Shown: positions 15,032 through 17,942 of the stretch, piece by piece
Position numbering within the stretch: the stretch's first letter is position 1
How the letters are laid out: every line of letters begins with the position of its first letter
DNA from: Mesorhizobium sp. M9A.F.Ca.ET.002.03.1.2
Lineage (GTDB): Bacteria > Pseudomonadota > Alphaproteobacteria > Rhizobiales > Rhizobiaceae
Assembly: GCF_003952365.1 (NCBI RefSeq)
Contig: NZ_CP034443.1
Coordinates: 124,001-188,000, forward strand
Reading direction: 5' to 3'
Length of the DNA: 64,000 nt
Translations under genes and position numbers: made by a program
Notes under the pieces: generated by a model
Database searches by the model: none
What the model was told of the DNA's origin: nothing
Seen by the model: the letters and a program-made list of their open reading frames with translations, nothing else

Positions 15032-15204
15032 GCTGCCCCTCATCCGCCTGCCGGCACCTTCTCCCCGTAAACGGGGAGAAGCCCGCTGGCCGCAACCTCG
15101 GCACCCTTTCCGCAACGCTGGAGATTGGCGAAACCGTCAGCGAAGGCGCCCTTCTCCCCGTCTCTATACGGGGAGAAGATGCCGGCAGGCAGATGAGGGG
15201 CAGC
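15032..15204. repeat. Rhizobial palindromic intergenic repeat
   Basis: Outer arms GCTGCCCCTCATC..GCCTGCCGGCA (15032 onward) and TGCCGGCAGGC..GATGAGGGGCAGC (to 15204) form a long inverted repeat; inside are two CTTCTCCCCG..CGGGGAGAAG hairpins. This is the architecture of the mosaic palindromic elements scattered between rhizobial genes. It lies just after uvrB and could also end its transcript. It encodes nothing. Confidence 0.8.
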
Positions 15205-15349
15205 ACCGACATTGATGGTCAATTGCCTCCACGCATGGGTTGTTATCTGTCTGAAGCGACTGCCCGGACGGGAGGGGTGTGGCACTTGCTATCGGCCCCT
15301 CCCTGGTGTAGCCAATTCCCCAACTCGAACGTCTTGAAAGGAGGGCTGC

Positions 15350-15415
15350 GTGACTTTCGACCACCACCGTCAGCGCGGCCCTGTCCCTGCCCTGCGAGCT
15401 TGCCTGCAGGGCTGA
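15350..15415 (+). CDS. Putative 21-residue leader peptide upstream of the ABC-F gene
   Basis: A GTG-started frame of 21 codons with an excellent ribosome-binding site (AAAGGAGGG, 5 nt spacing), better than that of the main gene downstream. The product reads VTFDHHRQRGPVPALRACLQG. The RQRGP stretch (Arg-Gly-Pro near the middle) is similar in kind to arrest motifs of ribosome-stalling peptides. Its 3' half lies inside the 5' arm of an RNA hairpin, so ribosome position would decide folding. This is the arrangement expected of translational or transcriptional attenuation. Expression and stalling are inferred, not shown. Confidence 0.55.
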   Translation: MTFDHHRQRGPVPALRACLQG

Positions 15416-15452
15416 CCAGGGACGGTCCGGGTTTTTCCCGCTTCGATTTTTT
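15383..15452 (+). promoter_or_regulatory. Putative attenuator hairpins and U-tracts in the ABC-F leader
   Basis: GTCCCT (15383-15388) and CCCTGC (15390-15395) pair with GCAGGG (15406-15411) and AGGGAC (15418-15423), forming a long bulged helix that overlaps the leader reading frame. It is followed by CGGG-ttttt-CCCG and a run of six T (15447-15452). A ribosome stalled in the leader would cover the 5' arm and could release downstream transcription or translation of the ABC-F gene 100 nt away. Confidence 0.5.
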
Positions 15453-15551
15453 GGTCTGCCCTTCGTGGTGCCGCAACGCTTAGCCTGGTGGCCAGCACGC
15501 GCACCGTCAAAGTGCATTGAGCCGGGCTCCGGCAAGACCAGAGAAATCCAA

Positions 15552-17081
<1,530 letters not shown>

Positions 17082-17208: not shown

Positions 17209-17394
17209 ATGTCTATTCTGTCATCCATAGGTCGCATCGCGACCCGTTACTCGGCGGCCCGCGCCCGTTACCGCAGCGAGCGCGCGCTCCTTTCATTGCC
17301 GATCGAATTGCGCAAGGACATCGGCTGGCCGGAAATCGTCGTCGACGCGCAAAACAGCCCCCGGATCGCAATCTCCTTGTCCGAGGCAAGATAA
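17209..17394 (+). CDS. Small DUF1127-like protein
   Basis: A 61-residue basic protein starting at ATG 17209 with GAGGAGAG upstream. The RSERALLSLPIELRKDIGWPE segment (in parts: LLSLP..LRKDIG) fits the DUF1127 pattern L-x-x-L-x-x-x-L-x-DIG. Small DUF1127 proteins in alphaproteobacteria have been linked to phosphate/carbon regulation and RNA turnover; the function here is not shown. It stands alone between the ABC-F gene and the VOC-family gene. Confidence 0.7.
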   Translation: MSILSSIGRIATRYSAARARYRSERALLSLPIELRKDIGWPEIVVDAQNSPRIAISLSEAR

Positions 17395-17513: not shown

Positions 17514-17942
17514 ATGAACGATCAGCCCCAAACCCAGCCTGCCGCGAAAGTCCTCGGCGGATTGACGCCCTACCTTCAACTGGACGGCGCGTTCAAGGCT
17601 TCAGAATTCTATCAGAAGGCCTTCGGCGCCGAGCAGGTCTTCTTCTACCCGCCGGATGAGAAGGGGCGGACGATGCACATCCATCTCCACATCAACGGTT
17701 CGACCTTGATGATTTCCGACTTCTATCCCGAGCACGGAATGGCCGCGGTGAAGCCGCAGGGCTTCACCATGCAGCTGCATCTGCGCAGCGACGATATCGA
17801 CGCCTGGTGGCAGCGGGCCGTCGACGCCGGCTGCAAAGTCGGCACGCCGCTGCAGGTGATGTTCTGGGGCGACCGCTGGGGTCAGCTGACCGATCCGTTC
17901 GGCGTCGAGTGGGCGATGAACGCGCCGGTGAAAAAGGCATAG
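17514..17942 (+). CDS. VOC superfamily protein, PhnB-like
   Basis: A 142-residue protein of the vicinal-oxygen-chelate (glyoxalase/PhnB-like) fold: LTPYLQLDGAFKASEFYQKAFGAE at the N terminus and WGDRWGQLTDPFGVEWAM at the C terminus are diagnostic of the PhnB-like branch (split here as LTPYL, FYQKAFGA, DPFGVEW). AAGGAGG lies upstream of the ATG. Family members include poorly defined metalloenzymes; substrate unknown. It is followed after 10 bp by the DUF1428 gene, forming a two-gene operon that often recurs in proteobacteria. Confidence 0.88.
   Translation: MNDQPQTQPAAKVLGGLTPYLQLDGAFKASEFYQKAFGAEQVFFYPPDEKGRTMHIHLHINGSTLMISDFYPEHGMAAVKPQGFTMQLHLRSDDIDAWWQRAVDAGCKVGTPLQVMFWGDRWGQLTDPFGVEWAMNAPVKKA

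Follow-up and report, generated by a model that had tools for sequence, protein, structure and literature searches.

We analysed a window of 64,000 nucleotides of Mesorhizobium sp. M9A.F.Ca.ET.002.03.1.2, in which a gene for an ABC-F ATPase is preceded by a short leader open reading frame (ORF) and by four RNA segments that can pair with each other in competing ways. The features of this locus, all on the forward strand, are as follows.

15286..15310, plus strand: promoter-like TTGCTA ... GGTGTA block in the interval from the uvrB-type gene to the leader, conserved as CTTGCC...GGTGTA in 81 aligned upstream regions
15337..15345, plus strand: leader Shine-Dalgarno (SD) sequence AAAGGAGGG
15350..15415, plus strand: leader ORF MTFDHHRQRGPVPALRACLQG followed by a stop codon, 21 codons, GTG start, conserved with synonymous change
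15377..15382, plus strand: Gly-Pro codons, the proposed stall site, from their place relative to the stem in relatives and from stall simulation
15389..15395, plus strand: segment 1 (GCCCUGC), pairs with segment 2, with compensatory changes in relatives
15406..15418, plus strand: segment 2, GCAGGGCUGACCA, contains the leader stop codon and pairs with segment 1 (OFF) or 3 (ON), from fold and alignment
15445..15461, plus strand: segment 3, GAUUUUUUGGUCUGCCC, holds the second U-tract and pairs with segment 4 (OFF) or 2 (ON), from the fold
15531..15548, plus strand: segment 4, GGCAAGACCAGAGAAAUC, the ABC-F ribosome-binding region, base-paired to segment 3 in the fold of minimum energy and unpaired with a ribosome on Gly-Pro
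15552..17081, plus strand: ABC-F ATPase, 509 aa, ATG at 15552, the controlled gene in our reading, assigned by NCBIfam and by PDB relatives in sequence and fold

The leader SD is a near-perfect, 9-nt match to the SD consensus. The gap between it and the GTG at 15350 is 4 nt, or 5 nt if counted from GGAGG. An earlier note on this DNA had described a leader with hairpins upstream of ABC-F, with an ideal ribosome-binding site 5 nt before a 21-codon GTG frame and a hairpin over the 3' half of that frame. These elements are real, the hairpin being formed by GCCCTGC (15389-15395) with GCAGGGC (15406-15412), and the region extends further than the note had placed it. Among 66 divergent orthologs, the median SD match was 7.5 nt for the leader and 4 nt for ABC-F itself. 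An attenuator of the ErmC type requires a leader ORF with its own strong SD, and such an ORF was found here, with four of the 66 leaders showing no SD match of 4 nt or more. Leader length in these representatives was 15-28 codons. The block at 15286-15310 may be a promoter, and a sigma-70 consensus scan returned no promoter at these positions.

The best NCBIfam match of the ABC-F protein, among all families, was NF000355 (ribosomal-protection-like ABC-F) with 286.6 bits, a score that fails the curated cut-off of 380. The nearest PDB relatives by sequence were YbiT, a chain labelled ExpZ (8buu, VmlR2) and YheS, and a fold search with Foldseek placed VmlR2 and PoxtA first. The structure model had a mean pLDDT of 76.6 and a pTM of 0.45, and because of this pTM the Foldseek result confirms the ABC-F fold only. 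Relatives with 32-35% identity occur in Gammaproteobacteria (Rahnella, Ewingella, Vibrio, Klebsiella and Morganella). They have a different leader, of 26-27 codons with an AAGGAGG-type SD, in nine of the nine inspected among 18 records listed, with hairpins over the leader end and over the ABC-F start. These leaders (L228-L230, L232-L237) end in R before the stop codon, e.g. MLTREVFLISLVLSDRHCSGISGTLLR, and contain no Gly-Pro. The similar layout suggests that leader control may be general for these ABC-Fs. The PAF1 ABC-Fs of Vibrio and Klebsiella have been predicted as resistance factors (PMC6723617; papers given by PMC number are cited from excerpts).

We built a covariance model of the leader, R1, from 40 sequences (38 from Mesorhizobium or near kin, one from Ensifer and one from Rhizobium). 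Of 146 Mesorhizobium genomes, 133 contained the ABC-F ortholog (best E < 1e-140). R1 matched 134 of the 146, and comparison genome by genome, with positions checked by eye for some rows only, showed that these were all 133 genomes with the ortholog plus G117. In an order-level sample of 297 genomes, the ortholog (at least 50% identity) was found in 41 and a relative with 32-33% identity in five more. All 41 genomes with the ortholog carried the leader, 40 by R1 and G237 by eye, and seven other genomes of this sample matched R1 at E > 0.003 and had no ortholog. The order, family and class samples (297, 297 and 385 genomes, partly shared) together gave 95 distinct genomes with R1 matches at E <= 1e-4, and ABC-F (50-100% identity) was found in the stretch around the leader in 93 of them. 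Because most of these 93 were found via the leader, the unbiased counts are 133/133 in Mesorhizobium and 41/41 in the order sample. The leader is tightly linked to ABC-F.

The two exceptions among the 95 are both disrupted loci. In L184 (G296), a Mutator/IS256-type transposase gene (PF00872; 5974-7619 of L184) lies between leader and ABC-F, and in L214 (G482) ABC-F is truncated, so that by eye its start alone remains after the leader. A set read on both strands held 203 ABC-F loci, of which 201 had the leader pattern (exceptions L184 and L201) with 61-229 nt between stem end and ABC-F start. In one locus set, 94 of 110 loci were used and the 16 without a plus-strand match were skipped. ABC-F genes were also found in plasmid records of Sinorhizobium meliloti (pSymA of strain M162), Pararhizobium, Ketogulonicigenium and Gemmobacter, with the leader in four of the four inspected. 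Those R1 matches at E > 1e-4 from the order, family and class samples that were inspected (L173-L183, L217, L218, L220-L223) had no ABC-F and were taken as chance. Among the Mesorhizobium genomes, the leader model also gave recurrent weak second matches of 79 nt at E values of about 1e-5 to 1e-3, and the one inspected (L219, G080) lay inside coding sequence.

The ABC-F gene was irregular in some Mesorhizobium genomes. In G117 (L238), the leader is followed by the remnant of a deleted ABC-F, and neither here nor in L214 has anything been restored. In G019, G054, G057, G075, G079, G097 and G102, the ABC-F match is in two parts on one contig, through decay or assembly error.

Conservation of the peptide was evaluated in the 66 representatives, which were taken from 170 distinct regions, with L210 excluded for its unsure ABC-F start. 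Because the pattern used to find them required GGNCC and most of the stem, the presence of Gly and Pro in 66/66 and of the first stem pairs is partly by choice. The test was therefore repeated with no demand for Gly-Pro. A stem and an SD-led in-frame ORF were then found in 158 of 173 distinct upstream regions, and Gly-Pro stood exactly two codons ahead of the stem in 157 of these 158, L201 having Arg-His in its place. Fourteen of the 15 regions missed have the leader by another pattern, and the 15th is L184.

The peptide core is R-[QT]-x-Gly-Pro. In the 66 representatives, variation in the Gly and Pro codons is confined to the wobble position (heterozygosity 0.35 and 0.63, respectively, and 0 at first and second positions). 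Position −3 was Arg in 56 of them, position −2 was Gln or Thr in 62 and position −1 was Arg in just 45, so that of the RQRGP stretch pointed out previously, Gly-Pro is the conserved core and RQR is not. The Gly is residue 9-13 from the start in 65/66 and residue 16 in the remaining one. After Pro, the eight commonest residues are V, D, R, I, F, K, N and G. The last part of the peptide is not conserved as protein: in 8/66 representatives the stop codon falls inside the hairpin, and the hairpin is retained there.

Two known arrest motifs were compared with this core and rejected. In all 66 representatives, Gly is preceded by R, F, Y, H or C and never by Ala, as opposed to the SecM/RAPP-type core (RAGP, RAPP, RGPP, RAPG). 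The macrolide +x+ arrest leader (Arg/Lys-x-Arg/Lys at the stall site) is a misfit because Arg at −1 is unconserved (45/66, against 56/66 at −3) and because the ABC-F site, on average, stays closed (0.373) in simulated stalls that place codon −2 in the P site.

Segment 1 (15389-15395) pairs with 15406-15412, and the tail of segment 2, UGACCA, can join the alternative 2:3 pairing. The fold of the whole region is only modestly more stable than those of shuffled sequences (z = −1.69), and 12 of 200 shuffles equalled or exceeded it. What is above chance is the particular set of competing pairings and their conservation, and not overall stability. RNAduplex on single sequences, a weak test, gave values below 0.05 in 16 and 19 of 66, and the ungapped test and the stall scan were therefore added. 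In the ungapped test, the 2:3 complementarity exceeded dinucleotide shuffles at 0.05 in 40 of the 66 representatives (Fisher p 6e-36; this combined p-value is too small because the sequences are related). The mutually exclusive 1:2, 2:3 and 3:4 pairings that the ErmC type requires are thus present, with 26/66 not significant alone for 2:3 at 0.05 (L171, L202, L204, L206 and L215 among them). The sites for 2:3 and 3:4 overlapped in 53/66, against 29 expected. When segment 3 was picked by its fit to segment 2 alone, it was also the part of the spacer best fitting the ribosome-binding region, with a median rank of 0.125 and two of 65 above 0.5 (the test covers 65 of the 66 representatives).

Compensatory base changes in relatives support 1:2 and 2:3. 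One column of 2:3 reads C-G in 51 representatives, U-G in eight, U-A in five and A-U in one, with one mismatch, and G237 shows, by eye, a change from A-U to G-C. In 1:2, U-A is replaced by C-G in three representatives and C-G by U-A in two. L172, L193 and L194 have the same layout with different letters (by eye). Codon-level conservation of the small frame and compensatory base changes in the stems, the lack of which would by the earlier note have spoken against the attenuator, were both found. No Rfam family matched at gathering score in the window, and none at E <= 1 in 15200-15600.

We then simulated stalls along the leader. A ribosome was placed with successive codons in the P site, the remainder was refolded, and the accessibility of the ABC-F ribosome-binding site was averaged, with three plain spacer shuffles per sequence as control; the model describes folding outside the co-transcriptional setting. 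Mean accessibility stood at 0.371-0.378 for codons ahead of Gly, rose to 0.442-0.456 over Gly and the five codons that follow, and fell back to 0.367-0.398 beyond them. Simulated stalls thus opened the site over the stretch from Gly to +5 codons and nowhere else, and since accessibility rises from Gly onward, Gly-Pro is the first codon position at which a stall opens the switch. With the spacer shuffled, the profile was flat at 0.47-0.48, and this flat and higher accessibility shows that the site is concealed by the real spacer. The shift in the mean is small (from about 0.375 to 0.445), and the stalled state nearly reaches, yet remains below, the shuffled-spacer level of 0.47. The window's own values were about 0.3 before the opening stretch, 0.65-0.77 during it and 0.23-0.35 after it.

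In the minimum-energy structure with a ribosome on Gly-Pro, 2:3 was formed and the ABC-F ribosome-binding site was open, and with a ribosome at the stop codon 3:4 was restored. In a separate run, a stall on Gly gave a gain above 0.05 in 39/66, a loss above 0.05 in three and little change in 24. Compared with a ribosome at the leader end, the Gly stall was up in 30 and down in eight of the 66 representatives. In simulation, then, a ribosome stalled over segment 1, with segment 2 left uncovered, frees the site that is hidden in the OFF state, as the ErmC type requires.

By computation, the leader is conserved, its geometry is fixed, its pairings compete and its linkage to ABC-F is tight. These observations point to a leader-peptide translational attenuator of the ErmC type that controls ABC-F, with a ribosome-binding drug as the most likely trigger, and we give this reading a probability of about 0.75. 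The attenuator architecture itself is hardly in doubt; a stall at or just after Gly-Pro is highly probable, and a drug as the trigger is probable. In unstressed cells, the ribosome would read the leader to its stop codon, 1:2 and 3:4 would pair, and 3:4 would hide the ABC-F ribosome-binding site. A ribosome that stalls on R-x-x-Gly-Pro, its P site occupied by the Gly (or Pro), would cover segment 1. Segment 2, thus freed, would pair with segment 3, segment 4 would be released and ABC-F would be translated. The trigger would most likely be a ribosome-binding drug whose effect ABC-F relieves. The earlier note had proposed that stalling in the leader frees ABC-F expression, and comparative and folding evidence supports that proposal, with the note's points on RQR and the U-tracts corrected. 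Its account of the structure had the hairpin right and lacked the helix that hides the ABC-F ribosome-binding site.

In ermC, alternative segment pairings control the ribosome-binding site of the main gene, and in chain length at the stall, 9-13 residues, the present leader resembles ErmCL and ErmBL. The locus shares with ermC/ErmCL (named in PMC10219788 and PMC10314930) the SD-led leader ORF and the alternative pairings. A further likeness is a main-gene ribosome-binding site that would stay hidden until the leader stall. The differences are that the gene there is for an rRNA methylase and here for an ABC-F, that the core here is R-x-x-Gly-Pro and not the ErmCL sequence, that the hosts here are Alphaproteobacteria, and that drug dependence here is a prediction.

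It is also conceivable, if rather doubtful, that R-x-x-Gly-Pro at 9-13 residues is a new arrest resolved by ABC-F, through which the cell would meter ABC-F activity with or without a drug. In the form with a drug, Gly-Pro this far into the chain would be a drug-specific arrest motif not described before, and it would reveal an antibiotic met by these soil bacteria. The drug-free form of this circuit, in which the arrest is intrinsic and ABC-F is made when its own activity runs short, we consider unlikely. Its chain at the stall would have only 9-13 residues, which is short for SecM-like arrests. The ortholog is patchy (41/297 order-sample genomes), and therefore a resistance-type gene suits better than a housekeeping one. 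However, Gly-Pro is the invariant core of the leader, and RAGP, RAPP and RGPP are arrest sequences of the SecM type (PMC12992588). Moreover, the SecM arrest is a target of YheS (PMC12096078) and the MgtL leader one of EttA (PMC11282234), and the expression of MsrD can be subject to feedback by MsrD itself (PMC10314930). SecM/RAPP-type arrest peptides resemble the present leader in having Arg and Gly-Pro in the core and in regulating a downstream gene by arrest; they differ in the RAGP/RAPP order, in a chain that is far longer at the stall, and in a target that is the protein-export machinery rather than an ABC-F (PMC12992588).

The main control could instead be transcription termination, intrinsic or Rho-dependent, in the interval from leader to ABC-F. 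The two U-tracts noted earlier after the hairpin do exist, at 15432-15436 and 15447-15452; terminators serve the vmlR and cplR leaders (PMC9226507, PMC10201436), and Rho-type attenuation has been proposed for a Sinorhizobium DUF1127 gene (PMC12218461). As conserved terminators, however, the U-tracts fail: a run of at least five T between stem and ABC-F was found in 9/66 orthologs only, and terminator-like sites in the 2.3 kb scanned were at chance level (three found against 1.9 expected). A conserved intrinsic terminator of the vmlR/cplR/msrD type before ABC-F was rejected on these two results. In addition, the second U-tract pairs with the ribosome-binding region, as one strand of the helix that hides it. 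Control by transcription attenuation is thus very improbable.

The possibility that the peptide acts in trans, or that the RNA alone matters and leader translation is incidental, has a precedent in peTrpL of Sinorhizobium meliloti, which acts in trans in antibiotic-dependent complexes (PMC7298713). The peptide past Gly-Pro-x-x also appears dispensable as protein, given the stop codons inside the retained hairpin. But Gly-Pro varies at the wobble position only and keeps a fixed distance to the stem, which ties the peptide to a position in cis on the RNA, and we regard this explanation as highly improbable. Least credible is an amino-acid attenuator stalled by scarce Arg, Gln or Pro tRNA: the core does contain Arg and Pro, but it has no single-residue run, neither Gln/Thr at −2 nor Arg at −1 is fixed, and ABC-F is no biosynthetic gene.

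ABC-F leaders of the vmlR, cplR and msrD type are drug sensors (PMC9226507, PMC10201436, PMC10314930). The leaders of vmlR, vmlR2, cplR and lsaA, which are Gram-positive ARE-ABCF genes, likewise place a uORF and an SD-hiding hairpin upstream of ABC-F, but their uORFs have 3-4 codons (MIN, MK[L/Q], MR[I/M], MAGN), against 15-28 here (PMC9226507, PMC10201436). Intrinsic terminators are used by vmlR and cplR, whereas our leader has an internal conserved motif and no conserved terminator (PMC9226507, PMC10201436). In msrD, the leader peptide MsrDL also controls an ABC-F, and negative feedback by the ABC-F is reported, but the attenuation there is transcriptional and macrolide-specific; the msrD operon is Gram-positive and has also reached some Proteobacteria (PMC10314930). 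Proteobacterial uORFs that read out ribosome stress are known from toiL-topAI of E. coli, whose target is not an ABC-F (PMC12121999), and from the Sinorhizobium DUF1127 gene, which has a non-ABC-F target and a Rho-type transcription attenuation model (PMC12218461).

The ABC-F leaders in the literature covered are those of Gram-positive-type resistance genes. In the excerpts of this open-access literature, which leaves subscription papers and preprints mostly outside, no such leader is described for a native Gram-negative ABC-F. If our reading is correct, Alphaproteobacteria own a native and widely conserved leader-peptide switch on an ABC-F gene, and its fixed arrest motif would be open to immediate testing with a panel of drugs. 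A role would also be indicated for this unassigned ABC-F group of soil and plant bacteria, and the leader would be a natural reporter for unknown ribosome inhibitors.

The gene upstream of the leader has UvrB domains. Between this gene and the leader lies a 38-nt inverted repeat (15032-15204), with arms that are 95% complementary and 97 nt apart. The element has 63 matches in its own genome; counting itself, about 12 are close to full length. It is a dispersed intergenic palindromic element. Downstream of ABC-F, a small arginine-rich protein (17209-17394) has no match in Pfam and, by eye, resembles DUF1127; a Glyoxalase/VOC-superfamily protein (PF00903) is encoded at 17514-17942.
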